In this document: positions 2,600 through 42,507 of the stretch, one piece after another | How the letters are laid out: the number at the start of each line of letters is the position of its first letter | Position numbering within the stretch: position 1 is the stretch's first letter | From: Oscillospiraceae bacterium | GTDB taxonomy: Bacteria > Bacillota > Clostridia > UMGS1810 | Assembly (NCBI GenBank): GCA_015069095.1 | Contig: SVJH01000011.1 | Location: 1-64,000 of the forward strand | DNA length: 64,000 bases | Direction of reading: 5' to 3' | Position numbers and translations under genes: made by a program | The notes under the pieces: model-generated | Databases searched by the model: none | Told to the model about the DNA's origin: nothing | What the model saw: the letters and a program-made list of their open reading frames with translations, nothing else

Positions 2600-2605
2600 A
2601 AAAAC

Positions 2606-2635
2606 AAACCCGAGTGATTTTCACTCGGGTTTTTA
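2606..2635. terminator. Bidirectional terminator between GH20-like gene and pckG
   Basis: AAACCCGAGTGA and TCACTCGGGTTT form a near-perfect stem with a three-base loop; a T run follows on plus and an A run precedes it, so it can serve both convergent genes. Confidence 0.88.
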
Positions 2636-2640
2636 ATTAT

Positions 2641-4392: not shown

Positions 4393-4489
4393 TTTTTTAT
4401 CTCCTTTGCTAATAGATTTTCTTGATTATTTATTAAAAATTAACCTAATCCATATTAAATAGATTTCGATACAAACATTTAAACTCCTT

Positions 4490-5883: not shown

Positions 5884-5884
5884 A

Positions 5885-7704: not shown

Positions 7705-7732
7705 TTTTATTTCTTCCTTTCATAACTTTTAA

Positions 7733-7939: not shown

Positions 7940-7972
7940 GTTTATTACCTCCTTGCATAGTTAAAAATTGGT

Positions 7973-8629
7973 TTAAAACGGCATTTTTAAATAAATGTCT
8001 AAATTAAATCTCTTATTTTGTAATCCTTGGGGAAGATTATCTAAAATTTCTTTCTTACCCGAAATGTATTTCACATTGACTCCAAGCATTTTTGCTGCTT
8101 CGTCAACGATTTTTATACTTTTAACAATATCTTCTGCCTTAGTAAGACCTTGAAGATTTGTATTGTTTACAATATCTGTTATTTTAAGACGCGATGCTGC
8201 TTCAATATTTCTTGCCATTTCGTAAATTTCTTCTTTTGTGCTTGTCATAGGACGAAGAGTATTTACAACAAAGTACATATTGTATGGCTCTTTTGAGATG
8301 TAGTGAAAATATGTTCCGAGTGCAATAGCACCATCGTCATCTCCACCTACGTCAAATATTTTATAAGTTTCTTTGTCTGCAAAAACAGACAGGACTTCTC
8401 CTGGCAAAACAGGGATATCTACATTTGTATTTGCAAATTGTGAAGAAATAACCTTTATGCCATTTTCTTCAAGAAGTTTCCTTGCATCGTTTGTACGGAA
8501 ATACGGATTTACAATGTCAAGGTCGCAAATAGAAACCTTTTTATTTTCTTTTTTTAAGTTCATTGCAAGGTTTAATGCAAATTCTGTTTTACCGCTTCCG
8601 TAATGCCCTGTAACAATGTTTGTTTTCAT
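7973..8629 (-). CDS. P-loop ATP-binding protein (MinD/CobQ-like)
   Basis: This 218-residue protein starts with a Walker A GHYGSGKTEFAL (residues 7-18), followed by a SICDLDIVNPYFR segment typical of SIMIBI-class P-loop proteins and DVGGDDDGA as the Walker B-like element. No DNA-binding or membrane segment is seen. It overlaps the upstream RseC-like gene by ATGA and precedes the ferredoxin subunit. From general knowledge, such ATPases often accompany VOR/KOR operons in Clostridia; a role in cofactor or Fe-S loading is a guess. The exact function is unknown. Confidence 0.82.
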   Translation of the reverse strand: MKTNIVTGHYGSGKTEFALNLAMNLKKENKKVSICDLDIVNPYFRTNDARKLLEENGIKVISSQFANTNVDIPVLPGEVLSVFADKETYKIFDVGGDDDGAIALGTYFHYISKEPYNMYFVVNTLRPMTSTKEEIYEMARNIEAASRLKITDIVNNTNLQGLTKAEDIVKSIKIVDEAAKMLGVNVKYISGKKEILDNLPQGLQNKRFNLDIYLKMPF

Positions 8630-9012
8630 TTGCGAATCACCTCCGCTATTTCACATGCAGGTGCTTTTGACTTTTTTAGTATAAAAAACCAAAACACACA
8701 GATTACCGGTATTAAAAATGCTAATATGTAGGGTGAAAAATGGTACTTTTCATTTAAAATTAAAACTGTAAGAAGCAATATGAGAGGTAAAATGTAAAGT
8801 TTGAATGCAAGATAAAGCGTTTTTTTAGTATCGGAAAAAATAACAACGTCATCACCGCATTTTGCCCCGATTTCGTTTTTTACTTCAACTGTAATTTTTT
8901 TCTCATCACAGCCTGAGCAACTTTTGCAGTTCCCCGAACACGCACTTGTTCTTTTAACAAGAACAAACGTCTTACCATTTTCGATTTTAACAACTTTTGC
9001 ATCTTGTAACAT
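8626..9012 (-). CDS. RseC/MucC-family (SoxR-reducing system) membrane protein
   Basis: The 128-residue protein has a soluble N-terminal domain with a cysteine cluster CSGNCKSCSGC at about residues 24-34, followed by two adjacent transmembrane helices (about 72-112) and a short tail. This matches RseC, known from proteobacterial redox signalling and Rnf-associated loci; in Clostridia its partner is unknown. It is the first gene of the operon that continues through the ATPase, VOR subunits and rsmA, so a redox or Fe-S related role is plausible. Confidence 0.83.
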   Translation of the reverse strand: MLQDAKVVKIENGKTFVLVKRTSACSGNCKSCSGCDEKKITVEVKNEIGAKCGDDVVIFSDTKKTLYLAFKLYILPLILLLTVLILNEKYHFSPYILAFLIPVICVFWFFILKKSKAPACEIAEVIRK

Positions 9013-9036
9013 TATATCACCTACTATATTTTATAC

Positions 9037-9065
9037 ATTATAGCAAACTTTGAGCTATTTTTCAA
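9037..9065 (-). promoter_or_regulatory. Promoter of the rseC-VOR-rsmA operon
   Basis: Read on the minus strand: TTGAAA, 17 bases, then TATAAT preceded by TGC (extended -10). It sits 25 bases before the first ATG of the operon. Confidence 0.75.
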
Positions 9066-9117
9066 CATTTTTTTATTAAAATTATACTTTTTTTAATATG
9101 TAATTTATTTTTAACTT

Positions 9118-9161
9118 AAAATGTCAATATAGAACTGGTAAAATGTCAAAACAGAACTTGT
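9118..9161 (+). repeat. Two tandem 22-bp direct repeats abutting the first xylanase promoter
   Basis: Copies at 9118-9139 and 9140-9161 both begin AAAATGTCAA and differ at three positions. The second copy overlaps the -35 element. The two-helical-turn spacing would put both copies on the same DNA face, as expected for a regulator site. Binding protein unknown. Confidence 0.65.
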
Positions 9162-9186
9162 TGCACAGCAAAAATTTTGTTATAAT
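9158..9186 (+). promoter_or_regulatory. Promoter of first GH10 gene
   Basis: TTGTTG, 17-base spacer, TATAAT; about 46 bases before the ATG and directly downstream of the direct repeats. Confidence 0.7.
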
Positions 9187-9232
9187 TATAGTGTGTTATT
9201 TATAACATTTTTAAAATGAAAGGAAGAAAATT

Positions 9233-11980: not shown

Positions 11981-11990
11981 AAAACATTCC

Positions 11991-12028
11991 AAAAACATCT
12001 CATTTCTATGAGATGTTTTTGCTTTTTT
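11991..12028 (+). terminator. Terminator of xylanase 1
   Basis: AAAAACATCTCAT and ATGAGATGTTTTT form a stem followed by a T-rich run. Confidence 0.85.
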
Positions 12029-12035
12029 CGCAAAA

Positions 12036-12104
12036 TATGTCCATATGCTCTATGAATTTGTCCATTTACTTTTTTGCGCGGATATGGTATCATTTAAGTA
12101 TACT
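12036..12104 (+). promoter_or_regulatory. Upstream region of xylanase 2: repeated TGTCCAT sites and probable promoter
   Basis: TGTCCAT occurs at 12038-12044 and again at 12059-12065, a 21-base step. A possible promoter follows: TTGCGC at 12074, a long 19-base spacer, TATACT at 12099-12104. The whole block is nearly identical to that before xylanase 3, which supports function or recent duplication. Confidence 0.5.
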
Positions 12105-12127
12105 AAATAAAAAAAGGAGACAAAAAA

Positions 12128-14983: not shown

Positions 14984-14995
14984 TTTAAAACTTTT

Positions 14996-15032
14996 AAAAA
15001 GTCAGGTGAATTTAATTCACTTGGCTTTTTTG
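14996..15032 (+). terminator. Terminator of xylanase 2
   Basis: Stem GTCAGGTGAATT / AATTCACTTGGC (with G-U pairs) and a T run. The same sequence ends xylanase 4 at 21412. Confidence 0.85.
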
Positions 15033-15052
15033 CTTTTAGCAGATATGTCCAT

Positions 15053-15112
15053 GTATTCTATGAATTTGTCCATTTACTTTTTTGCACGGATATGGTATCA
15101 TTTAAGTATACT
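15053..15112 (+). promoter_or_regulatory. Upstream region of xylanase 3: repeated TGTCCAT sites and probable promoter
   Basis: Two TGTCCAT copies with the same step as upstream of xylanase 2, then TTGCAC at 15082-15087, a 19-base spacer and TATACT at 15107-15112. Nearly base-for-base copy of the 12036-12104 block. Confidence 0.5.
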
Positions 15113-15133
15113 AAATAAAAAAGGAGACAAAAA

Positions 15134-17977
15134 ATGAAAAAAATAATATCATTGGTATTGTGCCTTGTAATGCTTGTTTCATGCTTTTCATTCAGTGCAT
15201 TTGCGCAGGATGAAATAAGTATTATAATCAACGGCAAAAAACTTACAATGGACCAAAGTCCAATTATTGTAGAGGGCAGAACACTTGTTCCGCTTCGTGC
15301 AATTTTTGAAGCACTTGGTGCAAAGGTAGAGTGGGACGACTTAAGTAAAACAGCAACAGGCATTAAAGATGGAAATGAAATAAAAATTCAGATAAACAAT
15401 GCGGTTGCAAAAGTAAACGGAAAAGACGTTACACTTGACGTTCCTGCACAAATTGTAAATAGCAGAACGCTTGTTCCTGTAAGATTTATTTCAGAATCTT
15501 TAGGTCTTAAAGTTGACTGGGATGATGCAACAAAAACTGTAATTATAACAGGTGGAAAAATAATCACTTTTGACGATGTAGAAAGTCTTACAGCAGAAAA
15601 AGATTTTCAGGCAGGCGGTGGCACAGGTGCTAAAAATATTGCGCTTACAACCGAAAAAGACCATACAACCGGAAACGGTAAAAGTGTTAAGGTGTCAAAC
15701 AGAACAAGCACAAGCCACAGAGTTAAATTTATGGGCGATTACGGTATAAATGCAAATGTTGGCGATACACTTACAATTTCTGCTTATGTTTTGGTAGATG
15801 AAGATTCAACAATAAGAATGGGAACATATACAGCGACAGGCGGTAAATACTCTACAAGTGCAAAAGCAAGAAGTGAAAAAGACGCAAAAAAAGGCGAATG
15901 GACATATATTGAACTTACATTTAAAAACGATAACAGCGCAACAATGATAGGTTTTGACCAGGTTAACGGCTCAAATGTATCTAAAGAAATGTACATAGAT
16001 GACATTAAAATTGAAGTTGGCAAAGCGGCAGAACCAATACTTGAAAATGAGTATAACCTACCTTACGATGTGAAAAAAATTGAAGGTAAAAGACCTACAC
16101 CAATTGTTACTGGTGGAAAAACATACGACGATTTAATTTTCTACGAAAGAACATTTAAAGATCCATCAGAAATTAAAACAAGTCAGCAATTGTTTGATGC
16201 TTTGCCAAAAAATCCTGAAAAAATTGCAGATAACAACGTAATGCTTAGTGCAACACTCACGGGCAAGGAATATGCATCTTTTGAAAAAATAGTTGTAGAT
16301 GACGCAACTGTTCCTTTTAAAGAAGGAATAAGAGCAACTGTTACAAAAATTCCTGAACAGCCATATCACGCACAACTTGTTCTTCCAAGTTTAAAAGAAG
16401 GAACATATAAAACAGGCGACAATATGCTTGCAGTTTTTTACTTAAGAACAATTAAAGGCGAAAACGATTCTGGTATGGGAAGAGTTCAGCTTATTGTTGA
16501 ACAGGAAGTTTCTCCTAATGCAAAAGCACTTAAAGAAGACGTTACAACAGTACAGGGCGCACCTTGGAAAAAGGTTTATCTTCCATTTATTGCAAAAGAA
16601 GGCTATGGAAGACTATGTGTACGTCTTGGCTACAACGTTCAGACTGTTGAATTTGGCGGATATGAAATTTTAAATTACAAAGATACAGTAAAATACGAAG
16701 ACCTTCCTTCAGATACTCAGATGACTGATTACGACAAACGTGATATCTTTACAAAAGATGAACAGTGGCGAAAAGAAGCGTGGGCAAGAATTGAAAATAT
16801 AAGACGTGGCGATATTAACGTTATTGTTAAAGATAAAAACGGAAATGTTATCGAAAATGCCGATGTAAAAGTTAATATGTACGACCACGAATTTAAATTT
16901 GGTGCTCCAGTTAAAACAACTGCAGACAATTCGCAAAATGCAAATGCGCACATAACACTTTTCAATACAGGTGTAAACGAATCTTCAATGAAATGGGTAT
17001 ACCTAATAGATGACGGTGGCGAAAAGGCACAGGCAGATATTGATTTTGCTAAGAAAAACGGTCAAAAATATTTCAGAGGACACGCTCTTGTATGGGACAG
17101 AGATTATGCACTTACATATGATAAAGAAACAGATAAGTGGATATACAACACATCTACTCCTGAAACACTTGTAAGAGCAACACTAAAAGGCGACAAAGCA
17201 GAAATTGACCGACTAATAAAAGAACACGTAGAAAATACTGTAGGTAAGTTTAAAGATTACATTGACGAATGGGACGTTGCAAATGAAATTATGCAACATA
17301 ACCTTATTCGTAAAACATACGGAAACGAAGTTTTGAAACAGTGGTTTACATGGGCAAAACAGGTAGACCCAAAAGCAAAAATGTATATCAACGAAAATGG
17401 TATTATAGGTGTTGGCGATTACACAAAATATGATAACTTCAGACGCGTTTTAGATGAAATGGTTGCTATGGATGTTCCGTTTGACGGAATAGGACTTCAG
17501 GCACATATTGACGGCTGGTCATCAATGGAAAGTATTTATGATAAACTTTCTGGCCTTGCATCTTACGGAAAAGAACTTAAAATTACAGAATTTGACGTAA
17601 ATAAATCACTTCACATGGAAGATGAAGAAGCAGAAGCAAGTATGCTAAGAGACCTTTTAATTATCTGTTACAGTATTCAAAATATGGACGGTTTTGTAAT
17701 GTGGAATTACAAAGAAACAGGCGCAACTTCAAGACGTGATGGTCCTATATTTAACGCAGATTGGACACTAAAACTTTCTGGCGAGCAGTTTTTAGACCTT
17801 GTTTACAATAAATGGTGGACACAAGAAGAAGGAAAAACAGACGCAAACGGTGCATTTACAACAAAAGGATACTACGGCGATTATTTAATTACAGCAACAG
17901 CAAATGGAAAAAGCAAAACTGTTGATGTTAAACATTATAAAGGAAATACTGATACAATAGAAATAGTTTTGGATTAA
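15134..17977 (+). CDS. Secreted GH10 endo-beta-1,4-xylanase with stalk domain (xylanase 3)
   Basis: The 947-residue protein contains signal peptide with LVSC/AFA as in xylanase 2, stalk (27-140), CBM (142-294), second beta-sandwich (317-515), GH10 (542-890) and C-terminal beta domain. Acid/base E718 sits in WDVANEI, nucleophile E819 in ITEFDV; RGHALVWDR is intact. The gene is a clear mosaic: promoter, signal peptide and the first ~40 codons are almost identical to xylanase 2, then from the codons for MDQSPIIVEG onward the stalk becomes almost identical to xylanase 4. RBS AAAGGAGA precedes the ATG. Confidence 0.93.
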   Translation: MKKIISLVLCLVMLVSCFSFSAFAQDEISIIINGKKLTMDQSPIIVEGRTLVPLRAIFEALGAKVEWDDLSKTATGIKDGNEIKIQINNAVAKVNGKDVTLDVPAQIVNSRTLVPVRFISESLGLKVDWDDATKTVIITGGKIITFDDVESLTAEKDFQAGGGTGAKNIALTTEKDHTTGNGKSVKVSNRTSTSHRVKFMGDYGINANVGDTLTISAYVLVDEDSTIRMGTYTATGGKYSTSAKARSEKDAKKGEWTYIELTFKNDNSATMIGFDQVNGSNVSKEMYIDDIKIEVGKAAEPILENEYNLPYDVKKIEGKRPTPIVTGGKTYDDLIFYERTFKDPSEIKTSQQLFDALPKNPEKIADNNVMLSATLTGKEYASFEKIVVDDATVPFKEGIRATVTKIPEQPYHAQLVLPSLKEGTYKTGDNMLAVFYLRTIKGENDSGMGRVQLIVEQEVSPNAKALKEDVTTVQGAPWKKVYLPFIAKEGYGRLCVRLGYNVQTVEFGGYEILNYKDTVKYEDLPSDTQMTDYDKRDIFTKDEQWRKEAWARIENIRRGDINVIVKDKNGNVIENADVKVNMYDHEFKFGAPVKTTADNSQNANAHITLFNTGVNESSMKWVYLIDDGGEKAQADIDFAKKNGQKYFRGHALVWDRDYALTYDKETDKWIYNTSTPETLVRATLKGDKAEIDRLIKEHVENTVGKFKDYIDEWDVANEIMQHNLIRKTYGNEVLKQWFTWAKQVDPKAKMYINENGIIGVGDYTKYDNFRRVLDEMVAMDVPFDGIGLQAHIDGWSSMESIYDKLSGLASYGKELKITEFDVNKSLHMEDEEAEASMLRDLLIICYSIQNMDGFVMWNYKETGATSRRDGPIFNADWTLKLSGEQFLDLVYNKWWTQEEGKTDANGAFTTKGYYGDYLITATANGKSKTVDVKHYKGNTDTIEIVLD

Positions 17978-17981
17978 GTTT

Positions 17982-18014
17982 AAAAAGCATCTTCTTTGGG
18001 AAGATGCTTTTTTT
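17982..18014 (+). terminator. Terminator of xylanase 3
   Basis: AAAAAGCATCTTC / GAAGATGCTTTTT stem with a short loop and long T run. Confidence 0.88.
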
Positions 18015-18139
18015 ATGCGCAACGTGCTGTGCTTTAAAAAAATATTTGTTTTTTATAATTTTTGGTTTGTTTTTTGTATTTACAACATATAAAAAATTTG
18101 ATAAAACAAAAAATGTATTAAAATTGTGGAGGTAAGAAA

Positions 18140-21100
18140 ATGAAAAAACTAATATCATTGGTATTATGCCTTATTATGATTGTTTCTTGCTTTTCGTGCG
18201 TTTCATTTGCCGAAAGCGAAATTCAAATTGTAGTAGATGGTAGTTATTTAACAATGGACCAAAGTCCAATTATTGTAGAGGGCAGAACACTTGTTCCTCT
18301 TCGTGCAATTTTTGAAGCACTTGGTGCAACAGTTACTTGGGATGATACTACAAAAACAGCAACAGGTGTTTTGGGCACAACAACAGTATCACTTCAAATT
18401 GACAATACTCAAGCAAAAGTAAACGGAAAAGACGTTACACTTGACGTTCCTGCACAAATTGTAAATAGCAGAACGCTTGTTCCTGTAAGATTTATTTCAG
18501 AATCTTTAGGTCTTAAAGTTGACTGGGACGATGCTACAAAAACTGTAATTATTACAACTCCTTTAAAACTTATAAAGGAATGGAATTTTGAAGATAAAAC
18601 TATTCTTAAAGAAAACGAAGATTTTATTGCAGGCGGCGGAATAAGTGCTAAAAACATTGCAATTTCTACTGAGCAAAATGCAACAGATAACGGGAGTAAA
18701 TCGCTTAAAATGGCAGAGAGAACAAGCTCTAACCACAGAGTTAAACTAATGAATGCATTTAGCGAAGATATGATTGGAAAAACATATACAATCACTGCAA
18801 AAGCATATTTAAGCGATGCATCGGGCTCTGTAAGAATGGGGCTTTACAGTACAACAAATACCGAGTATGCAACAAAACCGATTGCCGAAGTAAGCGTTAA
18901 AGCCGAAAAAGGCAAATGGGTAGATTTAAAACTTACATACAAACACGAAAACACAATTATTACACAAATTGGGTTTGACCAGTATCAAAGTGCAAGAAGC
19001 GATAATATTTTTATCGATGATGTGAAAATTTTCTTAGGTACAGATGAGGTTTTCAAACCTACAAAATATGGCGATCTTACACTTATTAAAGAATGGACAT
19101 TCAACGACACAGAAACTTTTAAAAATAATACAGACTTTATCACAGGTGGCGGCTACAATGCCGATGGCGTATCTGTTTCTGCCGATTTTGATGCAAACGG
19201 AAACGGTAAAAGTTTAAAACTTGACAAAAGAACAAACTTAGCTCACAGAATTAAATTTAAAAATGTATTTACAAAAGAAAACATCGGAAAAGTTTATACA
19301 GTTAAAGCGAAAGTTTATGTTCCTGACTATGATATGATTTCAGTAGTGGGTGCATATTCAGATGTAAATACAATTTATGCAATGAGCCCTATAAGTTATA
19401 CTTCTACACCAATTAAAAAGAATACATGGACGGAAGTTGAATATTCATTTTTACACGAAAAGGAAATGATAACTCAACTTGGATTTGGTCAGGCAGATGG
19501 TAAAACAGTACCGCTCTTCTACATAGACGATGTACAAGTTTTTGAAGGCGGAGTTGTAAAGGAAGAAGTACTTGAAGATTTAACTGTAACTGACGGCCAC
19601 AGACCTGTTCCGACTGAATTTTCAAACGGCAAAGGGTATGATGATTTAATATACTTTGGCGAAGGCAAAAAAACAGCAGACGAACTACTTAAAGCCCTTC
19701 CTGAAGGAAAAGAAGTAGTAGGCGGAAACTATATAGCCGAATACTTACAAAAAAATCTTGAAAAACAGGACAGATACAATCCTGAACACGGAAAACTTGA
19801 AGTAATAGATGTTTCTGGCATGCCTTTTACAAAAGCAGTAAGAGCAACGGTTTATAATCCTTTAGACCCTGCATACGCATTCCAACTCGGTCTTGGAACT
19901 CCTCTTGAGGGCAAAGCAGAAGAAGGCGATGTTTGCCTTTTAAGACTTTGGATGAGAACGGAAAAAGGCGGTCAGGGCGAAGCTCAAATGGGAAATGTTA
20001 TGGTTGTTATTGAAGAAAATGGCGGTGGATATGCCAAAACAATAACAGCAAACGTAACAAATGCAAGTGAATGGAAAGAATTTTACTTCCCGTTTAAATT
20101 CAAAGACAACTATACTCATGCAACAATCCGTCTTGCATACTATACTCAGGTTGTAGATATTGGCGGTTACACAATTACAAATTACGGAAAAGATGTTGAT
20201 ATTGATTCTTTGCCAACCGATACAAACTCTTCTCCTTACCTTGCGCGTGATGCAGCGTGGAGAAAAGAGGCGTGGGAAAGAATTGAAAATATAAGAAAAG
20301 ATAACTTTAGCATAGTTGTAAAAGATAAAAATGGAAATTTGGTAAACGATGCAGATATTAAAGTTAATATGTATGAACACGAATTTGAATGGGGTGTGGC
20401 AATACATTCATCAATTTTAAAAGATGATTTTTACAGAAAAGAACTTCAGAAAAACTTTAATGCAGCGGTATGTGAAAATCATTGCAAATGGAATATTTAC
20501 GATCAGGATCCATCTCTTACAGAAGATATACTTAAAGAGGCAAAAAACATAGGCATTAAATACATAAGAGGTCATCTTTTAGCTCCGCCTGCACCATTTG
20601 TATATACAGAAGGAAATACAACAACACCAAAAGATTTGCCTGAAATATACAACGATAAAGATGCACTTTTAAAAAGAATTAAAGACCATGTAGATGAAAT
20701 TACAACTCATCTTAAAGAGTATATTCCTTATGAATGGGATGTTGTTAACGAAGCTGCAAGACGTCATGATATAAGAGACGAATATGGTCTTGAAATTATA
20801 AAACAGACATACGATATTGCACGTCAGGCAATGGGCGAAACAGGAAGACTTTATTATAACGATTTTACACTTGACCAGACATTTTATGATATGATGGACG
20901 GTTTTGTAGAAGCAGGAATCGACATTGATGGTATAGGACTTCAGTCGCATTACGGCTCTCCTTTAAATCCGGAATCGATTTATAACATATATGAAAAAAT
21001 GGCTGCATACGGAAAACGTCTTAAAGTTACAGAATACGATTTTTCAACAACCGATTTTGAACTTCAGGCAAACTTTACACGTGATTTTATGATAACTACG

Positions 21101-21400
21101 TTTTCACATCCTTCAATGGACGGACTTATTATGTGGGGTTTCAGAGGAGGTGCATCTAATCAGTATGTTCTTTTTGACAGAAACAATAATCCAAAACCGG
21201 CACTCACCGTATGGCAGGATTTAATTTACAATAAATGGTGGACAGACAAAGAAGGAAAAACAGATTCAAATGGTACATTTAATGTAGATGCTTATTTTGG
21301 AGATTATGATATCACAGTAACAAAAGACGGAAAAACATATAAAACGACAGCAAAACTTTATAAAAATTCAGACAGAACATTGGAAGTTGTTATTGACTGA
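18140..21400 (+). CDS. Secreted GH10 xylanase with two CBMs and an altered RGH motif (xylanase 4)
   Basis: The 1086-residue protein has a signal peptide (IVSC at 14-17; SFA at about 24-26), stalk (28-140), two related CBMs in tandem (147-298 and 313-470), second beta-sandwich (485-683), GH10 (705-1033) and C-terminal beta domain. Catalytic glutamates are present: E871 in WDVVNEA and E965 in VTEYDF. The conserved RGHxxxW stretch reads RGHLLAPPA (R810-), so proline 816 replaces the tryptophan of the -1/-2 subsite seen in the other five. Substrate range may differ. RBS GGAGGTAA precedes the ATG. Body resembles xylanase 1, stalk resembles xylanase 3. Confidence 0.91.
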   Translation: MKKLISLVLCLIMIVSCFSCVSFAESEIQIVVDGSYLTMDQSPIIVEGRTLVPLRAIFEALGATVTWDDTTKTATGVLGTTTVSLQIDNTQAKVNGKDVTLDVPAQIVNSRTLVPVRFISESLGLKVDWDDATKTVIITTPLKLIKEWNFEDKTILKENEDFIAGGGISAKNIAISTEQNATDNGSKSLKMAERTSSNHRVKLMNAFSEDMIGKTYTITAKAYLSDASGSVRMGLYSTTNTEYATKPIAEVSVKAEKGKWVDLKLTYKHENTIITQIGFDQYQSARSDNIFIDDVKIFLGTDEVFKPTKYGDLTLIKEWTFNDTETFKNNTDFITGGGYNADGVSVSADFDANGNGKSLKLDKRTNLAHRIKFKNVFTKENIGKVYTVKAKVYVPDYDMISVVGAYSDVNTIYAMSPISYTSTPIKKNTWTEVEYSFLHEKEMITQLGFGQADGKTVPLFYIDDVQVFEGGVVKEEVLEDLTVTDGHRPVPTEFSNGKGYDDLIYFGEGKKTADELLKALPEGKEVVGGNYIAEYLQKNLEKQDRYNPEHGKLEVIDVSGMPFTKAVRATVYNPLDPAYAFQLGLGTPLEGKAEEGDVCLLRLWMRTEKGGQGEAQMGNVMVVIEENGGGYAKTITANVTNASEWKEFYFPFKFKDNYTHATIRLAYYTQVVDIGGYTITNYGKDVDIDSLPTDTNSSPYLARDAAWRKEAWERIENIRKDNFSIVVKDKNGNLVNDADIKVNMYEHEFEWGVAIHSSILKDDFYRKELQKNFNAAVCENHCKWNIYDQDPSLTEDILKEAKNIGIKYIRGHLLAPPAPFVYTEGNTTTPKDLPEIYNDKDALLKRIKDHVDEITTHLKEYIPYEWDVVNEAARRHDIRDEYGLEIIKQTYDIARQAMGETGRLYYNDFTLDQTFYDMMDGFVEAGIDIDGIGLQSHYGSPLNPESIYNIYEKMAAYGKRLKVTEYDFSTTDFELQANFTRDFMITTFSHPSMDGLIMWGFRGGASNQYVLFDRNNNPKPALTVWQDLIYNKWWTDKEGKTDSNGTFNVDAYFGDYDITVTKDGKTYKTTAKLYKNSDRTLEVVID

Positions 21401-21411
21401 TTTAAAACTTA

Positions 21412-21448
21412 TAAAAAGTCAGGTGAATTTAATTCACTTGGCTTTTTT
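21412..21448 (+). terminator. Terminator of xylanase 4
   Basis: Same hairpin as at 14996 (GTCAGGTGAATT / AATTCACTTGGC, T run); the preceding gene end and spacer are also alike. Confidence 0.85.
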
Positions 21449-21527
21449 GTTTTTAACAAATGTGTTATTTATAAAAAAGAGTTCAATATTTGAAATATAA
21501 AAAGTCAATAAAGTAAAAGAATAAGTA

Positions 21528-21556
21528 TTTACTTTTTATGATAAATAGTGTAAAAT
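21528..21556 (+). promoter_or_regulatory. Probable promoter of xylanase 5
   Basis: TTTACT, 17 bases, TAAAAT. It ends five bases before an in-frame GTG at 21561, which therefore is unlikely to be the start. Confidence 0.5.
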
Positions 21557-21587
21557 TAAAGTGTATCAAAATTATGGAGGTAAGAAA

Positions 21588-24500
21588 ATGAAAAAACTAA
21601 TATCATTAGCATTGTGCCTTGTTATGCTTGTTTCATGTTTTTCATTTAATGCATTTGCAGAAACAGAAATAAGTATTATAATCAACGGCAAAAAACTTAC
21701 AATGGACCAAAATCCTGTAATTATTGACGGAAGAACACTTGTTCCTCTTCGTGCAATATTTGAAGGACTTGGTGCACAGGTAGAATGGGACGATTCAGTT
21801 AAAACTGCAATCGGCAAAAGAGATGGAAAAGAAATAAAAATCCAGATTAACAACACAGTAGCAAAAGTAAACGGAAAAGACGTTACACTTGATGTTCCTG
21901 CTCAGCTTATAAACAGCCGAACAATGGTGCCTGTAAGATTTATCTCAGAAGCACTTGGCGAAAAAGTTGACTGGGACGATGCTACAAAAACTGTTATTAT
22001 TACAAGCGAAAATGGTGCAAAAGTAATCACTTTTGACGATGTTACTTCTTTTGTATCCGGAACAGATTTTCAGGTTGGTGGCGCGTATTCCAACAATAAT
22101 ATTGCACTTTCAAATGAAAAAGACCACACAACTGGAAATGGTAAAAGTATACTTGTAGGTAATAGAACACAAACAAGCCAAAGAATTAAATTTATGGGAG
22201 AATATGGCGCAGATTCTTCAATGAATGAATATGTATTTTCTGCTTACATTTACTCTCCTAATGATGCAACTGTAAGATTTGGTACATACGGAACAACAGG
22301 CAGCGAGTTTTCTACAGCCGCAAAACAGAGTTACACTGCAAATGTTAAAGCAAACGAGTGGACACTTATTTCGGGCGAATTTGTATACGATAAAGATGCT
22401 TGTATGATTGGTATTGACCAGCCAGGTGGTTCAAAAACAATTTTGCCTGAATTTTATGTAGATGACATTACTATTGCTGCAAAGGCGCCTAAGCAGGCGG
22501 GTCTTTTAACTTTTGATGATTTAACAGAATTCGTTTCTGAAAAAGATTTTCAGGTTGGCGGTGGTGCTTCTAACGCAAACATTTTCTTGTCTGACGAAAA
22601 AGACCACACTCAAGGAAATGGTAAAAGTATAAAATTCTTTAACAGAAAAGCCGATAATCACAGAATTAAATTTATAAATATTTTAGACGGTATCGAAGGT
22701 GCTGCTAAAATAACAATGTGGGTTTATCCTGATATTGATGCAACTGTAAGAATTGGAGCATATGGCACAACAGGAACAAAATATGCTACACTTGCAAAAG
22801 AAAGCACAACAGTAAATATTAAAGCAAATCAGTGGAACGAAGTTTCGTTTGTTTACACAAAAATAGATAAAGAAGCACTTATGATTGGTATTGACCAGGC
22901 AAAAGGTGCAGATAAAGTTATAAACACAATGTACATTGATGATGTTAAAGCAGAAAAAACAGATCCAAACACTGCTGTAACACTTCAGGGTGTGCCTTGG
23001 CAAGAAACAAGATACTTAAACGCTGACGGAACAAGACCTGTTCCTACAGAATTTAAAAAATCAAGCGATTTAAGAGATTTAATTTATTATGATGAACTTC
23101 CTACAATGGAAGAAGTAATTCCAAAAATTATGCCGCTTGGCGAAGTTGTATTTTCACTTGACGACTTAAAAGACGCTCAGATTATGGGCGAAAGCAAATA
23201 CGGTAAAGTAGAACTTGTAAATATTGAAGATGCAAAATACGATAAAGTTTACAGAGCAACTGTAACAGAATTGCCACAGTATCCATATAATTTTCAGTTC
23301 AAGAAAAAAATTCCTGATAACACATTTTCTACCGGCGATGTTGTAATGGTAAAAATTGTTGCAAGAACAACAGATGGCGGTATTCCTGAATCAAAAACAG
23401 GTCTTGTAGAATTTAATATTGAAAGCAGCGCAGATTCATCTTCATCTAAAATTCTTATCGGCGACTGCTATGCAACAAGCGACTGGACAACAACTTATGC
23501 AACAACAACAATTTCAAATGCATATACAAAAGATATAGACACTAATATCCGTCTTGGATATTATCTTCAGACTGTAGAAATTGCTGAATACGAAATTATA
23601 AACTTCAAAGACAAAGTCAGCATTTCAGACATTCCTTCAAGAGGCATATATCCTAACATGGAAAAAGGTGCCGCATGGAGAGAAGAAGCACTCCAAAGAA
23701 TTGAAAAAATCAGAAAAGAAGACGTTAAAGTTATTGTAAAAGATGCCGCAGGCAACACAGTTGATGCAAAAGTTGATGTAAATATGTACGAACATACATT
23801 CAAATGGGGTACAGTACTTAATCACACAGCAAATAACATTGCCGAAAAAGGCGAACAATACCGTTCAAATATCGTTAAATATTTTAACACAGTAACACTT
23901 GAAAATGACCACAAATGGAAAGCTATTGCTGAAAATCCGGAAGTTGCAAAAGAATATGTTCAGTGGGCACAGGATAACGGTCTTGCGGTAAGAGGACATA
24001 CACTTGTATGGCCAAGTTACAACAGTACATATGCTGTTCCTGAATTTGTAAGAGAAGCTGTTGCAAAAGGCGACAGAGCAAAATTTGATGAACTTGTTAA
24101 AAACCATATTCAAAATACACTTAAAGATTGGAAAGGCAAACTTTCTGACTGGGATTTAACAAACGAACTTGCAAATAACACAGCATTTGTTGATGCATTC
24201 GGTAAAGAAGTATATATTGACTGGCTAAAATGGGCAAAAGAAGCAGACCCTGATACACCGATGTATTTAAGTGAAACTGCAATTGTTGGTATTGAAGACA
24301 AAACACTTAATGTAATGAAAGATTATCTTGAATATATGAACGAAAACAATGCGCCGTACGACGGTATTGCAATTCACGCACATATGTCAAGTTTAATCGA
24401 CCCTGAAAACTTCTATCGCCAACTTACAAGTGTACTTGAAAGTGCTCCTGGCAAAAAAATGCAGATTACAGAGTTTGACCTAAGAAGCCGTGATGTGTAC

Positions 24501-24845
24501 TCAGGTGCTGAATTTATAAGAGATATGCTTATTCTTTTCTACAGCATCGAGCAGATGGAAGGCGTTCATTGTTGGGGATTCTGGGATGGAAGCCATTGGT
24601 TTAATAACGCTCCTTTATTTGATATGAACTGGGAATTAAAACCTTGCGGCGAGCAGTATATTGATATTATTTATAATAAATTCTGGACAAGAGATTCAGG
24701 TAACACTGCAAATGGAGAATATAACCTAAGAGCATTCCACGGTTTATATAACATTACAGCAACAACTGCTGACGGAAAAACAAAAACAATTAAAACAGAA
24801 GTTAAAAAAGGTGCAGACAACACGTTTGTAATTACACTTGACTAA
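21588..24845 (+). CDS. Secreted GH10 xylanase with two CBMs (xylanase 5, divergent)
   Basis: The ATG at 21588 is chosen over an upstream GTG because GGAGGTAA lies right before it and the encoded MKKLISLALCLVMLVSC is the family signal peptide. The 1085-residue protein has stalk (to 142, of the type in xylanases 1 and 2), CBMs at 145-297 and 304-459, second beta-sandwich (477-674), GH10 (695-1030), C-terminal beta domain. Acid/base E860 sits in WDLTNEL and nucleophile E962 in ITEFDL. The barrel is the most divergent of the set: GIAIHAHM replaces GIGLQSHF, although RGHTLVW is intact. It closes the tandem array, converging on a LysR gene. Confidence 0.91.
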   Translation: MKKLISLALCLVMLVSCFSFNAFAETEISIIINGKKLTMDQNPVIIDGRTLVPLRAIFEGLGAQVEWDDSVKTAIGKRDGKEIKIQINNTVAKVNGKDVTLDVPAQLINSRTMVPVRFISEALGEKVDWDDATKTVIITSENGAKVITFDDVTSFVSGTDFQVGGAYSNNNIALSNEKDHTTGNGKSILVGNRTQTSQRIKFMGEYGADSSMNEYVFSAYIYSPNDATVRFGTYGTTGSEFSTAAKQSYTANVKANEWTLISGEFVYDKDACMIGIDQPGGSKTILPEFYVDDITIAAKAPKQAGLLTFDDLTEFVSEKDFQVGGGASNANIFLSDEKDHTQGNGKSIKFFNRKADNHRIKFINILDGIEGAAKITMWVYPDIDATVRIGAYGTTGTKYATLAKESTTVNIKANQWNEVSFVYTKIDKEALMIGIDQAKGADKVINTMYIDDVKAEKTDPNTAVTLQGVPWQETRYLNADGTRPVPTEFKKSSDLRDLIYYDELPTMEEVIPKIMPLGEVVFSLDDLKDAQIMGESKYGKVELVNIEDAKYDKVYRATVTELPQYPYNFQFKKKIPDNTFSTGDVVMVKIVARTTDGGIPESKTGLVEFNIESSADSSSSKILIGDCYATSDWTTTYATTTISNAYTKDIDTNIRLGYYLQTVEIAEYEIINFKDKVSISDIPSRGIYPNMEKGAAWREEALQRIEKIRKEDVKVIVKDAAGNTVDAKVDVNMYEHTFKWGTVLNHTANNIAEKGEQYRSNIVKYFNTVTLENDHKWKAIAENPEVAKEYVQWAQDNGLAVRGHTLVWPSYNSTYAVPEFVREAVAKGDRAKFDELVKNHIQNTLKDWKGKLSDWDLTNELANNTAFVDAFGKEVYIDWLKWAKEADPDTPMYLSETAIVGIEDKTLNVMKDYLEYMNENNAPYDGIAIHAHMSSLIDPENFYRQLTSVLESAPGKKMQITEFDLRSRDVYSGAEFIRDMLILFYSIEQMEGVHCWGFWDGSHWFNNAPLFDMNWELKPCGEQYIDIIYNKFWTRDSGNTANGEYNLRAFHGLYNITATTADGKTKTIKTEVKKGADNTFVITLD

Positions 24846-37779: not shown

Positions 37780-40608
37780 ATGAAAAAAACACTAAGTTTA
37801 ATTTTATCTTTTATTATGATTATTTCTTGCTTTTCGTGTGTTTCATTTGCCGATAGCGAAATAAAAATCATAGTAGACGGAAATGCACTTACAATGGACC
37901 AAAATCCAATTATTGTAGAAGGAAGAACACTTGTTCCGCTTCGTGCAATATTTGAAGCACTTGGTGCAAAAGTAGAATGGGACGATGCTACAAAAACAGC
38001 AACCGGAGTTTTGGGAGCAACAACAGTATCACTTCAAATTAACAATACTGTAGCAAAAGTAAACGGAAAAGACGTAACACTTGACGTTCCTGCACAAATT
38101 GTAAACTCAAGAACACTTGTACCTGTAAGATTTATTTCTGAATCTTTAGGTTGCAAAGTTGACTGGGAAGACGCAACAAAAACAGTTACAATCGCAAGCG
38201 TAGGCGAAACAGTTTTTGAACTTAATTTTGATGACAAAACATCTTTTGAAGAAAACAAAGATTTCATAATCGGAGGTCTTTACAAAGGCGAAAATGTATC
38301 TTTGTCAAGTGATTTAGACCACACAACATCAGTCGGTAAATCACTAAAAATAGGAAAAAGAACAGCATCAAACGACCGTGTTAAAATTGTAAATGCATTT
38401 AGTGACGCTAAAATAGGCGAAACATATGTTATATCTGCATGGGCTTATTTAGATACAGACACACAGAAAATGTCTATAGCAGTATTTGGTGATAAAGGCA
38501 CATCTTTCGCATATACTGCACCTGCAAGAAAAACATATCCTGCAAAAGCAAATACATGGACTTATCTTGAAGTTGAATATACATACGATAACGAAGAAAT
38601 TACACAAATCGGTTTTGACCAGGGCGATGTAAAAGAAGGTATTGCATCTACAATTTACATTGACGATATCAAAATCACTAAAAAGAAAGTGGCAGAAAAT
38701 ACACTTTTACCTGTTGTTACAAGAGAAGGTAAACGTCCTACTCCTGTTGCAAAAGATACAGGAAAAACATATGACGATTTAATTTTCTACGACAGAGAAT
38801 TTAAAGATAACGTTTCACTTGACGAAGTATTTAATTCACTTCCAAAAGACCCTAAAGTACTTTCAACTAATGAAAAAATGCTTAATGCATCTTTAATGGG
38901 TCAAAAATACGCAACAGTTGAAAAAATAAAAGTTGACGGTATGCCTTTTAGCGAAGCATTAAGAGCAGATGTTAAAATTGTTCCTGCAAAACCTTACGAT
39001 GCGCAGATTGTAATAGATTCACTTGGTCAAGACGGATTTAAAACAGGCGATAATATGCTTTGCATATTCTATATGAGAACAGTATCTTCTGCAAATGAAA
39101 TTGCACAGGGACAGGTTCAGCTTATTGTTGAACAGGAAGTTTCTCCTAACAACAAAACACTTCAGGAAGACGTAAAAACACTTATGGGCCCTACATGGAA
39201 GAAAGTATACGTTCCATTTGCTGCAAAAGAAGGTTATACACGTCTTTGCATACGTCTTGGCTACAACGTTCAGACAGTTGAATTTGGTGGATACGAAATT
39301 CTAAACTATGAAAACAAAGTTGACTTTATGGATCTTCCATCATCTACAACAATGGAAGTTTACGATAAAAAAGAACTTTTCCAAAAAGATGTTGAATGGC
39401 GAAAAGAAGCATGGGCAAGAATTGAAGAAATCAGACGTGGCGATATTAAAGTTATTGTAAAAGATGAAAACGGAAATGTAATTCCTGATGCTGATGTAAA
39501 AATTGATATGTATGACCACGAATTTAAGTGGGGCGCTGCTATTAACGGTACAATTATGAAAGAAGATACATTCGGCAAAAACTACCGTCAGGCAATTGCG
39601 GCACTTTACAATACAGCAGTTGAAGAAACATCACACAAACCTGTAGAATACATTAACCATCCTGAAGTTGGCAGAAGAGATATGGAAAAAGCATTTGAAC
39701 TTGGACTTAAAAACTTTAGAGGTCATACTCTTGTTTGGGACAGATCAAACACATTCGATCCTGAAACAGGCGTATGGAAAGAAAACACATCTGTATCAGA
39801 AGAACTTTCAAAACTTATTTATGCAGGCGATAAAGAAAAAATTGATGCTTACATGAAAAACACAATTCAGACAACAGTTACAGATTTCAAAGATGAAATA
39901 TGCGAATGGGACGTTGCAAACGAAGTGTTGTCAAACAAAGAAATACGTTCAAAATATGGCAACGAAGTTCTTGTTAACTGGTTTAAATGGGCAAGAGAAG
40001 CCGATCCTGACACAAAACTTTACATCAACGAAACCGGTATTGTCGGTAACAGCGAAAACGGCAAAATGGCTGATTTCAAAAAAGTGCTTGATGATATGGT
40101 AAAACTTGGCGTTGATTTTGATGGTATAGGTATTCAGGGACATATCGGAACATATGTTTCTCCATATGATTTCTATAAAGAAATTATGGAACTTGTTCCT
40201 TATAATAAACAAATAAAAATTACAGAATATGACACATCAATACTTATGGCAAAAGATAAAGAAGCTGATGCAAGTTTCATGCGTGATATTATGATACTTA
40301 TGTTCTCTATTGAAAATATGGACGGATTTTTATCTTGGGGTATTATAGATAACACAAGCGGTACAAAAAATTATCCTATATTTGATAAAGAATGGAACTT
40401 GAAACTTTCAGGCGAGCAGTATATCGACCTTGTTTACAATAAATGGTGGACACAGGAAGATGGCAAAACAGATGCAAACGGCACATATGCATTAAAAGGC
40501 TACTACGGCGATTATTTAATTACAGCAACAGCAAACGGAAAAAGCGCAACTGTAGATGTTAAATGCTACAAAGGTAACGATAACGTAGTTGAAATTGTAC
40601 TTAAATAA
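37780..40608 (+). CDS. Secreted GH10 endo-beta-1,4-xylanase with stalk domain (xylanase 6)
   Basis: The 942-residue protein lies 13 kb from the tandem array but has the same order: signal peptide (IISC at 14-17; SFA cleavage near 26), stalk (28-140, type of xylanases 3 and 4), CBM (143-301), second beta-sandwich (317-510), GH10 (538-886), C-terminal beta domain. Acid/base E715 sits in WDVANEV, nucleophile E816 in ITEYDT; RGHTLVWDR and DGIGIQGHI are intact. Body resembles xylanases 2 and 3. RBS AAGGAGAGG. The gene is followed by a hairpin-rich repeat (40624-40710) rather than a simple terminator. Confidence 0.93.
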   Translation: MKKTLSLILSFIMIISCFSCVSFADSEIKIIVDGNALTMDQNPIIVEGRTLVPLRAIFEALGAKVEWDDATKTATGVLGATTVSLQINNTVAKVNGKDVTLDVPAQIVNSRTLVPVRFISESLGCKVDWEDATKTVTIASVGETVFELNFDDKTSFEENKDFIIGGLYKGENVSLSSDLDHTTSVGKSLKIGKRTASNDRVKIVNAFSDAKIGETYVISAWAYLDTDTQKMSIAVFGDKGTSFAYTAPARKTYPAKANTWTYLEVEYTYDNEEITQIGFDQGDVKEGIASTIYIDDIKITKKKVAENTLLPVVTREGKRPTPVAKDTGKTYDDLIFYDREFKDNVSLDEVFNSLPKDPKVLSTNEKMLNASLMGQKYATVEKIKVDGMPFSEALRADVKIVPAKPYDAQIVIDSLGQDGFKTGDNMLCIFYMRTVSSANEIAQGQVQLIVEQEVSPNNKTLQEDVKTLMGPTWKKVYVPFAAKEGYTRLCIRLGYNVQTVEFGGYEILNYENKVDFMDLPSSTTMEVYDKKELFQKDVEWRKEAWARIEEIRRGDIKVIVKDENGNVIPDADVKIDMYDHEFKWGAAINGTIMKEDTFGKNYRQAIAALYNTAVEETSHKPVEYINHPEVGRRDMEKAFELGLKNFRGHTLVWDRSNTFDPETGVWKENTSVSEELSKLIYAGDKEKIDAYMKNTIQTTVTDFKDEICEWDVANEVLSNKEIRSKYGNEVLVNWFKWAREADPDTKLYINETGIVGNSENGKMADFKKVLDDMVKLGVDFDGIGIQGHIGTYVSPYDFYKEIMELVPYNKQIKITEYDTSILMAKDKEADASFMRDIMILMFSIENMDGFLSWGIIDNTSGTKNYPIFDKEWNLKLSGEQYIDLVYNKWWTQEDGKTDANGTYALKGYYGDYLITATANGKSATVDVKCYKGNDNVVEIVLK

Positions 40609-40623
40609 GCATAATAAATAATA

Positions 40624-40710
40624 CTTCTTTTTAAAAAAGAAGCAAAAGCGTTGCTTTTTTGAAAAAAAGCAACACAAAAAACTTACAATATGCAAAACAT
40701 TCGTTTTGCA
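40624..40710 (-). repeat. Three-hairpin repeat, copy 1 (after xylanase 6)
   Basis: Three hairpins in a row: CTTCTTTTT/AAAAAAGAAG (40624-40642), GTTGCTTTTTT/AAAAAAGCAAC (40650-40673) and TGCAAAAC/GTTTTGCA (40691-40710). Its reverse complement lines up with 42525-42616, hairpin by hairpin, with alignable spacers such as TGTAA. Read from the adjacent gene end the hairpins come in the same order in both copies. Confidence 0.7.
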
Positions 40711-40713
40711 AAG

Positions 40714-40749
40714 AAAAAAAGGTATCTCAAAAAAAGAGATGCCTTTTTT
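40714..40749 (+). terminator. Terminator-like hairpin before the beta-helix gene
   Basis: AAAGGTATCTC / GAGATGCCTTTTTT stem (one G-U pair) and T run. It is the last of four hairpins in the 40.61-40.87 kb gap, which holds no gene. Confidence 0.75.
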
Positions 40750-40875: not shown

Positions 40876-42297
40876 ATGAAAAAATTATTAGCATCTTTGA
40901 TTATGCTCACATTAATTGTTTCTTCGTTTTCAGTTGTAGCATTTGCAGATGCGGCTACACCGGTTGAAGTTGCTTCGTGGGATGCACTTGAAACAGCATT
41001 CGCAGCTGCACCAGCAGACGGAACAGAGTACACAATTAAATTTACTAAAGACATTTCAAATGGAGTAAGCTCAGCAGGTACTAGTTGGTCTTCTGATATG
41101 TTAGCCCCTTATGGTACAAACATTGTTATTGATCTTAATGGTCATACTTTAAAATATGGCGGACGAGGAATACGAAATACAGGTACAATTACAATCAAAA
41201 ATGGTAACCTCAATTATATAAGTTCAACAAGTAGTTACTATGCAATAAATTTTAATAGTACATCATCAACTGCCAGAGCAAAATTAACTTTGCAAGATGT
41301 TAACCTTACTACTGAATATGCAAAAGGTATAACAATGCTGGGTTCTAGCAACTATGGCGACTTAGTTCTTGAAAACACAAATATCACTTCAAAAGGAATA
41401 GTTTTATATAGTGCAGGCACTTCAAAAAATAACACAATTAACATTAATGGTGGTAATCACACAACTTATGACCCTAATGGATATGTTGTTAAATTTCAAG
41501 GTGGCATAATTACTGTAAATGATGGAACATTCAAAAACAATAATGTAACTCCAACATCGTATAAAGTGTTTAATGCAGGGCAAACTTCATCAGGTAACTC
41601 TGCTACAAGTTCTAATAGACGAATATTCTTCTATGGTGGCACATATCCGGTAGACCTTACAGGTGCTGCTAGTTCAGTTCTAAAAAGTGGTTATTATTGT
41701 TTAAAATCTAACGTAAACGAATACGTGGTAGAAAAATCAGTAGGTGCTGCTAAAATTGGAAGCACTCGTTATAAAACACTTGCATTTGCTGTAAGCGATG
41801 TAGCTGAAAACGGCGAAGTAGTTCTTTTAGCAAACAACACAGAAGCAGTTGAAGTTAGCAAATTAGCTACAATTACTAAAAACGGATTTACAGCAAACGT
41901 AACAGCAGGCGAAGGTTATGTGCTTAAAGAAACAGAAACAGCATATGTTGTTGAAGAAGCTCCATCAGAAGTTACAGTTGCCGAAAATATTACTGCATCT
42001 TACGATGATGGAAAAGGCGCAGGCACAAAAACTTCAAGATTCTTTGCAGATATCAATACACTTGATGTAGCAGAAGCAGGTTTTGAAGTTTCAGCAACAG
42101 TTGAAGGCGTTAAGTACACATGGACAATTGCACTAAACGAAGTTTACAGTACAGTTGTTGCAAATGATGTTACATACAATGCAACAAACTACATTATAAC
42201 AGGTGCAATCGGTGATATTCCAAATAGTTTCGAAGGCGAATTTGATGTAAAAGTTTACACAAAAGACTTTGAAGGCAATACAAAATATATAGGTTAA
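40876..42297 (+). CDS. Secreted beta-helix-like surface protein of unknown function
   Basis: Start at 40876, after GAAAGGATG, where MKKLLASLIMLTLIV begins a signal peptide (about 1-24, AFADA). The 473-residue protein has a long region (about 40-270) with short repeating strands rich in Asn, Gly, Thr and Ser (ITIKNGNLNYIS, KLTLQDVNLT, NTININGGNHTTY, IITVNDGTFKNNN) that looks like a right-handed parallel beta-helix of the pectate-lyase/adhesin type. A second domain (about 291-361: AKIGSTRYKTLAFAVSD) is common in gut surface proteins. The C-terminal 110 residues are Ala/Val/Asp-rich. No lyase active site or anchor recognised. It is 15 bases upstream of a 53-residue peptide gene. Confidence 0.78.
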   Translation: MKKLLASLIMLTLIVSSFSVVAFADAATPVEVASWDALETAFAAAPADGTEYTIKFTKDISNGVSSAGTSWSSDMLAPYGTNIVIDLNGHTLKYGGRGIRNTGTITIKNGNLNYISSTSSYYAINFNSTSSTARAKLTLQDVNLTTEYAKGITMLGSSNYGDLVLENTNITSKGIVLYSAGTSKNNTININGGNHTTYDPNGYVVKFQGGIITVNDGTFKNNNVTPTSYKVFNAGQTSSGNSATSSNRRIFFYGGTYPVDLTGAASSVLKSGYYCLKSNVNEYVVEKSVGAAKIGSTRYKTLAFAVSDVAENGEVVLLANNTEAVEVSKLATITKNGFTANVTAGEGYVLKETETAYVVEEAPSEVTVAENITASYDDGKGAGTKTSRFFADINTLDVAEAGFEVSATVEGVKYTWTIALNEVYSTVVANDVTYNATNYIITGAIGDIPNSFEGEFDVKVYTKDFEGNTKYIG

Positions 42298-42312
42298 GGG
42301 AGGATTTTTAAG

Positions 42313-42474
42313 ATGATAAAATACGAAAGCCCAAAGGCGGAAATTACAAATTTTATGTCTGAAGATGTTGTTACAACATCAGGTACAACAGCAAACAATC
42401 CTTTAACAGCACTTGCAACTAAAACATTTAATGTTTCCGATGCAAACGTTAGTTGGAAAGATAAAGTTAACTAA
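42313..42474 (+). CDS. 53-residue peptide of unknown function, operonic with the beta-helix protein
   Basis: The frame runs from the ATG at 42313, seven bases after GGGAGGA, to TAA at 42474. The N-terminal half (MIKYESPKAEITNFMSED, then VVTTSG) is highly patterned: a KYExP start, alternating hydrophobics and an acidic turn before VVTTSG. The rest is Thr/Ala/Asn-rich and ends WKDKVN. It has no signal peptide or membrane helix. I recall similar small proteins beginning KYExPxxE and carrying EDVxTxSG in many gut Clostridia and, in variant form, Bacteroidales, with no assigned function. Whether it is a secreted partner, a processed peptide or an intracellular protein is unknown. Confidence 0.72.
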   Translation: MIKYESPKAEITNFMSEDVVTTSGTTANNPLTALATKTFNVSDANVSWKDKVN

Positions 42475-42477
42475 TTA

Positions 42478-42507
42478 AAAACCCGAGTGAAAATTCACTC
42501 GGGTTTA
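42478..42507 (+). terminator. Terminator of the beta-helix/peptide operon
   Basis: AAACCCGAGTGA / TCACTCGGGTTT stem followed by a T-rich run. Confidence 0.85.

Follow-up and report, generated by a model that had tools for sequence, protein, structure and literature searches.

The analysed stretch of DNA (64,000 nucleotides in its full length, referred to as the window) contains a two-gene unit flanked by two terminators, in which a gene for a 473-residue secreted protein is followed by a gene for a 53-residue peptide. The features of this unit are listed below, where LPP stands for linear polyphosphorylated peptide.

40715..40749, forward strand: terminator-like hairpin that closes the preceding gene; the two-gene unit begins beyond it
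40876..42297, forward strand: secreted partner protein, 473 residues, ATG at 40876 (translation of the open reading frame)
40876..40947, forward strand: predicted signal peptide of the partner, 24 residues (plain Sec type by eye, and by a crude signal-peptide rule)
41968..42294, forward strand: C-terminal domain of the partner (type A), which in its own genome adjoins these peptides almost exclusively
42298..42303, forward strand: ribosome-binding site GGGAGG of the peptide gene (from the sequence)
42313..42474, forward strand: gene for the 53-residue putative LPP-like precursor peptide (open reading frame and homology searches of its own genome)
42313..42375, forward strand: predicted leader M1-T21 with the RRE-binding-type motif Y4-x-x-P7, F14, E17 and D18 (by analogy with PMC13381572); the cut after T21 is a prediction
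42376..42471, forward strand: predicted core or tail T22-N53, type A, ending SWKDKVN (by comparison of tails)
42379..42381, forward strand: codon of Ser23, the predicted phospho-acceptor (Ser kept in 88/91 peptides; analogy with S3 of LppA, PMC13381572)
42479..42506, forward strand: intrinsic terminator behind the peptide gene, 12-bp stem and T tract (hairpin search)

The peptide (MIKYESPKAEITNFMSEDVVTTSGTTANNPLTALATKTFNVSDANVSWKDKVN, open reading frame 42313-42474) begins 15 nucleotides behind the stop of the upstream gene and has no signal peptide; both points, as well as the ribosome-binding site (GGGAGG, 42298-42303) and the terminator (hairpin at 42479-42506) that belong to the peptide gene itself, had been claimed in a first-pass annotation and are confirmed here. 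Searches of Pfam and NCBIfam gave no match for either the partner or the peptide. The gap between them is in frame in the window, and a read-through fusion of partner and peptide was considered and rejected, since multiples of three account for 28% of 83 such gaps, as in unconstrained spacing. The same annotation had called the partner beta-helix-like. Its single-sequence model is of low quality, with a mean pLDDT of 48 and a better stretch over the first ~190 residues (block means 46-91). The best Foldseek match of this model is pectate lyase A (E=0.03, probability 0.96), which lends weak support to a pectate-lyase-like beta-helix fold.

Six other large secreted genes of one layout occupy positions 9233-24845 and 37780-40608 of the window, and none of them has such a peptide behind it; the one of the six that was scanned (37780-40605) encodes a Cu_amine_oxidN1 domain, a CBM_4_9 and a GH10 domain. 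Positions 40616-40713 are AT-rich with hairpins (CTTCTTTTTAAAAAAGAAG, GCAAAACATTCGTTTTGC), resemble the sequence behind other peptide genes of the genome, and may be an interspersed repeat. A dispersed-repeat pattern tried for it was dropped, as it had one match in the window and, as written, none in the loci.

According to our searches the rigid N-terminal pattern, already remarked on at first reading, goes far beyond chance. In its own genome (G000, 2.06 Mb in 46 contigs) the window peptide as a single query gave 16 matches at E<=10, 15 of them with E<=2e-4, and a profile gave 17 matches at E<=0.01 across 15 contigs; by sequence, about 17 dispersed paralogous precursors seem to exist there, the window peptide being one of them. 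A first profile found matches in 11 genomes (98 relatives searched), and a wider one in 44 of 293 genomes spread over the class. The largest numbers, which are counts of matches and not of curated genes, belong to G208 (21), G114 (19), G000 and G089 (17 each), G031 (15), G065 and G156 (11 each) and G247 (10). We collected 92 peptides, 91 of them distinct: 51 in a first batch and 41 in a second, the latter taken from the top of the match lists of six multi-copy genomes, some of them related to first-batch genomes at genus or family level.

These peptides share a leader with fixed spacing, Y-x2-P-x6-F-x2-E-D-[VI]-I-T-x-S, and [YF]xxP occurs near the start of all of them. Counted from the aromatic residue, Pro at +3 is kept in 91/91 distinct peptides, Phe at +10 in 85/91, [VI] at +15 in 89/91, Thr at +17 in 75/91 and Ser at +19 in 88/91. 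Gly directly follows the conserved Ser in 48/91, and no tail among the 91 contains Cys. Two main tail types occur in G000, type A, to which the window peptide belongs (..NPLTAL..K.F.VSDAN.SW.DKV), and type B (..PTVQELIAKGYSIGTVKNLFKN). Between paralogues pN/pS is 0.51 for type A, 0.32 for type B, 0.51 for G031 together with G065 and 0.60 for G089, so that the open reading frame is under coding selection, and in 4/4 sets the tail has a higher pN than the leader half. These ratios and the fixed spacing of the leader rule out a chance or non-coding reading frame. A first scan of public genome contigs with the peptide alignment found no relative, and the one with the kinase alignment described below did. 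Decayed copies are also present: a peptide pseudogene with an in-frame stop (G000:C20:19816-19947), a broken gene of a C-terminal domain that has no peptide (locus L287) and, in G089, a frame-broken peptide (L080).

The pairing with a secreted protein, which the first-pass annotation had offered as one option, extends well beyond the window. With gene and signal-peptide calls made by simple, crude rules, an upstream gene was in view for 49 of the 51 first-batch peptides; in 42 it lay on the same strand within 60 nucleotides, and 35 of these 42 had a signal peptide, most of the first-batch misses being truncated or mis-started genes. All 41 peptides of the second batch had a same-strand gene ending within 60 nucleotides upstream, with a signal peptide in 35/41; in the remaining six the upstream gene is truncated at the contig edge (L134, L137, L144, L160) or lacks a usable start (L149, L157). 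The background among genes of the same loci is 20/472 (4.2%). The gaps are longer (about 260 nucleotides) in L091 and L060, and in L015 (G000:C9:71500-82000, positions 1-5427) the order is reversed, with the peptide preceding a large secreted gene whose far end carries a type A domain. The peptide matches in L073 and L074 have no secreted gene upstream; L074 may be a false match, because the conserved Ser is missing.

While the middles of the partners vary (pectinesterase, BspA repeats, lectin-like, Ig-like, InlB-type repeats or nothing known), most of 79 partner C-termini fall, on profile iteration, into a few families that cross genome boundaries. The largest has 35 members (41 if seeded from G208) and includes G000 type B, G031, G065, G116, G208 and G247; the second has 28, from G114, G089, G287, G156 and G208; the type A family of the window has 6. 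Among other secreted proteins of the same loci 3/124 match any of these families, and the three extra matches are L091, a partner with a longer gap, L076+5301, directly behind a peptide, and L012+1232, which runs off the contig end. In most partners of G031, G065 and G116 (L061-L069, L090-L093, L169, L171) the signal peptide is nearly identical (MRKRRILSLLLAVAV.ATMLVAVPLTASA) and the rest differs, as if new cargo had been exchanged while start and end stayed fixed.

In the genome of the window the type B domain has 6 copies, 6/6 before a type B peptide. The type A domain gives 12 matches: six before type A peptides, one (C9) at the end of the secreted gene behind the reversed-order peptide, two fragments at the starts of contigs C8 and C32, both before type A peptides, copies at C29 and C32 that reach the contig end and leave no room for a peptide, and a broken copy at C28 with no peptide in view. 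By these tallies a peptide adjoins 13/13 full-length copies that have enough flanking sequence in view, and tail types and domain types show no cross-over. Since contigs break in or near such pairs (the end of C29, both ends of C32, the start of C8), further near-identical pairs, unresolved in the assembly, probably exist.

Over ten genomes the similarity of tails correlates with that of the partner C-termini (r 0.47, p 0.0005), the corresponding values being r 0.09 (p 0.06) for the partner middle and r 0.25 (p 0.002) for the signal peptide. Taken genome by genome, this covariation is clear in G000 and G114 and absent in G031, G089 and G208, and duplication of whole pairs could be the source of a part of it. 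A universal code between tails and domains is unsupported, because type A and G031 tails are alike (Trp near the end) and the C-terminal domain families of their partners differ.

Because PqqD-like RRE proteins bind motifs of the Y-x-x-P kind, PF05402 was searched. It is present in 17/18 genomes, with and without the peptides, so that its presence alone does not discriminate. In G061 a secreted gene is followed by the peptide, a 139-residue open reading frame, an HprK-like protein, a PqqD/RRE protein (1.5 kb from the peptide), a signal-peptidase-like protein and an ABC exporter. The peptide and its secreted gene also lie within the kinase cluster in G099, G209 and G213 (the RRE of G213 is unflagged by our search rule, and no exporter was seen in G209). 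Kinase and RRE genes are grouped, with or without the peptidase, in G089, G031, G065, G057 and G000, where contig C33 has all three together. An MsbA-like ABC exporter belongs to the clusters of G061, G031, G065 and G099, and none lies beside the C33 module of G000; NTP_transf_5 (PF14907) is confirmed in the clusters of G099, G209 and G116, and its two copies in G000 are at C21, on another contig than the C33 module. None of the 17 peptide matches of G000 lies beside the C33 kinase. The profile search and neighbour survey proposed by the first-pass annotation thus came out positive, with homologues that keep the N-terminus and with maturase or transporter genes near some of them.

Across the 293 genomes the kinase profile has matches in 79, and the kinase accompanies the peptide closely: it is found in 43/44 peptide-positive genomes vs 36/249 negatives (Fisher p 2e-28), and the sole exception, G245, has a congener that carries both. 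As genomes are not independent, the count by genus is fairer, and it gives the kinase in 31/31 peptide genera vs 24/150 others (p 3e-20). Full-length-type matches, which cover most of the profile, occur in 40/44 vs 9/249 genomes (p 7e-36), and in 27 of the 36 kinase-positive, peptide-negative genomes the kinase matches are shorter or partial. In public loci around the best kinase relatives, mostly Clostridia, Oscillospiraceae, Ruminococcus and Eubacterium by record titles, a peptide is in view in 16/80, mostly just upstream of the kinase. Cultured species with the kinase include Acetivibrio alkalicellulosi (L236), where a peptide is in view, and Ruminococcus flavefaciens Y1 (L266).

The C33 RRE protein scores 58.7-59.1 bits against PF05402 (cut-off 23.4), and the RRE profile matches solved lasso RREs (TbiB1, TfuB1), LppB (9x8z) and a paeninodin-type RRE. 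The residues of LppB that hold its leader, N33, D70 and F74 (PMC13381572), align with conserved RRE residues (N in 12/12 rows, D and F in at least 90%). A model of the kinase relative L191, built on a 50-row alignment, has pLDDT 96; its top Foldseek matches are HprK/P (E 1e-5), and VIA-align to PEPCK gives Z 13.3 over 213 residues with rmsd 3.6. By this model the relative, a putative kinase, would belong to the same superfamily, HprK/P-PEPCK. Below the NCBIfam cut-offs, 50/50 kinase relatives match ScmC and 25/50 match HprK-related kinase A. The peptidase-like protein of G000, which adjoins the RRE, matches TIGR02228 with E 2.9e-6 and 27.2 bits, below the curated cut-off of 51.85, and shows by eye the Ser-His-Asp set of an archaeal-type signal peptidase (S7, H46, D61).

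A second, conserved cassette was seen in the same genome (L114, G000:C28:124000-141000, positions 5606-9861), with PqqD, an ABC exporter, a 343-residue secreted protein, a 59-residue YxxP peptide, a longer HprK-like protein and an SLH-like protein. Similar cassettes occur in G003 (L126), G001 (L127) and, roughly, G091 (L129); the cassette appears to be a sister system that uses another leader.

The combination of genes that accompanies the window peptide and its homologues resembles the LPP system, described in Bacilli by Popov et al. 2026 (PMC13381572), which consists of the RRE protein LppB, the kinase LppK, the signal-peptidase-like LppS, the exporter LppD and the NTP transferase LppN. There LppK puts phosphates on Ser3 of the core and LppS cuts after Thr, while the role of LPPs is stated as unknown in the Discussion, and the words "secreted", "surface" and "clostrid" are absent from the main text (PMC13381572). 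Common to both are a discrete RRE, an HprK-like kinase, an archaeal/SipW-type signal peptidase, an MsbA-like ABC exporter (here in some of the clusters, not beside the C33 module) and an NTP transferase, as well as a small precursor with a YxxP leader and a Ser shortly behind it, and a patchy distribution (PMC13381572). In contrast, LPP clusters have 1-3 precursors each and lie in capsule loci of Bacilli (PMC13381572), whereas here, in another class, up to 21 matches are dispersed over a genome, and precursors sit each beside a secreted protein with a common C-terminal domain. The leaders differ too, YxxPxVLxHQxIxFETxxS in LPPs (PMC13381572) against YxxPx6Fx2ED[VI]ITxS here: the Tyr, the Pro and a Ser persist, whereas HQ and FET are missing and the Ser stands at +19 instead of +18. 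Because the published leader consensus is not matched, we file the system as LPP-like and not as a member of the LPPs. The earlier suggestion of an undescribed system thus holds for the dispersal of the precursors and their pairing with secreted proteins, but not for the maturation core, which matches that of the LPP RiPPs (PMC13381572). In open-licence papers the leader motif string had no match, and neither, among the titles listed, had dispersed precursors paired with secreted proteins. As far as these searches go, three traits are new: the dispersal of the precursors, their apparent maturation in trans, and their pairing with secreted partners that have dedicated C-terminal domains in common.

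Other known systems share single traits with this one. Sortase signals and type IX C-terminal domains tie unrelated cargo, through one common C-terminal domain, to a common machinery, and would be alike in working if the tethering considered below is right; here, every cargo protein comes with a peptide from a gene of its own, and no sorting enzyme is identified. The SynChlorMet and HprK-related-A cassettes (TIGR04249, TIGR04352, TIGR04353) also combine an HprK-like with a PqqD-like protein, and the kinases studied here match the corresponding NCBIfam models below cut-off; we know of no peptidase-exporter-precursor arrangement in them. Prochlorosin precursors are dispersed as well, but the chemistry of ProcM is lanthionine and, to our knowledge, no pairing of prochlorosins with secreted proteins has been described. 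What they have in common with the present system is a single maturation enzyme acting on many precursors, which share their leader but differ in their tails (PMC10783134).

Taking this together, we consider it likely that the peptide is an LPP-like precursor whose leader is bound by an RRE protein; the peptide itself would be phosphorylated on Ser23, freed of its leader and exported by an ABC transporter, and would act with the secreted protein made alongside it. Computation establishes the gene pairs, the common leader, its co-occurrence with the module, the fold of the kinase and the linked C-terminal domains; from these we infer the phosphorylation, the cleavage site, the export and any contact of peptide and partner, and picture them as follows. 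The pair would be co-translated and the cargo would leave by Sec. The first ~21 residues of the peptide would serve as the leader, held by the stand-alone PqqD/RRE protein, while the HprK-like kinase would phosphorylate Ser23, just behind it; a SipW/archaeal-type signal-peptidase-like enzyme would remove the leader, NTP_transf_5 enzymes would perhaps modify the product further, and an MsbA-like ABC exporter would carry it out. The LPP analogy would place the cut behind T21 of the window peptide and the phosphate on S23, with more doubt about the former than about the latter. The kinase, RRE and peptidase of C33 would serve about 17 dispersed precursors, which probably are all phosphorylated and cut by this one common enzyme set. 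Since the precursor is co-made with a Sec-secreted protein that ends in a dedicated domain, the mature peptide would most likely act outside the cell, on or with its partner, their meeting there being the step of which we are least sure. Several observations count against this reading: the C33 module lacks an adjoining exporter and is separated from the NTP transferases, which lie on a different contig, the peptidase is below the curated cut-off, 36 kinase-positive genomes have no peptide match, the leader departs from the LPP consensus, PqqD occurs in genomes without the peptide, covariation of tails and partners is patchy, and L073 and L074 have no partner.

Of the three roles proposed in the first-pass annotation, partner and processed leader-type peptide together fit best, ahead of a modifier of export, and the processed peptide in particular proved largely right, its N-terminus being leader-like for a module of PqqD/RRE, HprK-like kinase and signal-peptidase-like protein. 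A related idea, that the peptide is a cytoplasmic chaperone or pilot of the upstream secreted protein which is never matured, would agree with the missing signal peptide, with the tight coupling of the two genes and with the way the tail type tracks the partner C-terminus in G000; we find it unlikely, as the leader carries the RRE-binding YxxP motif, the peptide tracks the kinase across 293 genomes, and its gene is inside the kinase-RRE-peptidase cluster in some of them. The YxxP leader, the Thr near the cleavage site and the Gly/Ser start would also suit a lasso peptide precursor, and the RRE profile does match lasso B1 proteins. Paeninodin-type phosphorylated lasso peptides even share the RRE, the HprK-like kinase, the NTP transferase and the ABC exporter (PMC13381572). 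However, the B2 leader peptidase PF13471 is absent in 14/14 peptide genomes searched and the window tail has no Asp or Glu at core positions 7-9 counted from Gly, which makes such a precursor extremely improbable. Hardly to be expected, too, is a bacteriocin- or pheromone-like peptide of the double-glycine type, cut and exported by a C39 ABC transporter: the conserved block of the window peptide, like that of about half of its relatives, closes with a Ser-Gly pair, but with Gly behind the Ser in 48/91 distinct peptides there is no Gly-Gly or Gly-Ala-type site, and the four linked or nearby ABC proteins scanned consist of ABC_membrane and ABC_tran without a C39 domain.

The main rival as to function accepts a real and matured leader, and takes the product for a signal that reports expression of the secreted protein and does not bind it. 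The diversity of partner middles (from pectinesterase to BspA repeats and lectin-like) and the lack of tail-partner covariation in 3 of the 5 genomes tested singly would speak for it; the dedicated C-terminal domains common to the partners, and the pairing of tails and domains in G000 without cross-over, speak against it, and we regard it as possible, though doubtful. With similar reserve we may suggest, as a tentative extension of the LPP-like precursor reading, a distributed system of delivery or tethering, in which the kinase-matured peptide docks on the partner domain outside the cell and anchors the protein to a polymer or assembly of the surface by an end that is phosphorylated and perhaps nucleotidylated or glycosylated.

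As the precursors lie elsewhere in the genome, cluster searches centred on maturation enzymes would, we suggest, miss most of them. The pairs of precursor and partner provide a direct handle on the role of LPP-type phosphopeptides and would link this recently described peptide family to specific proteins of the cell surface. The system could also explain what a number of small proteins in gut bacteria are that have no annotation so far. If the tethering is true, one enzyme set would dress up to about 20 different surface proteins per cell.
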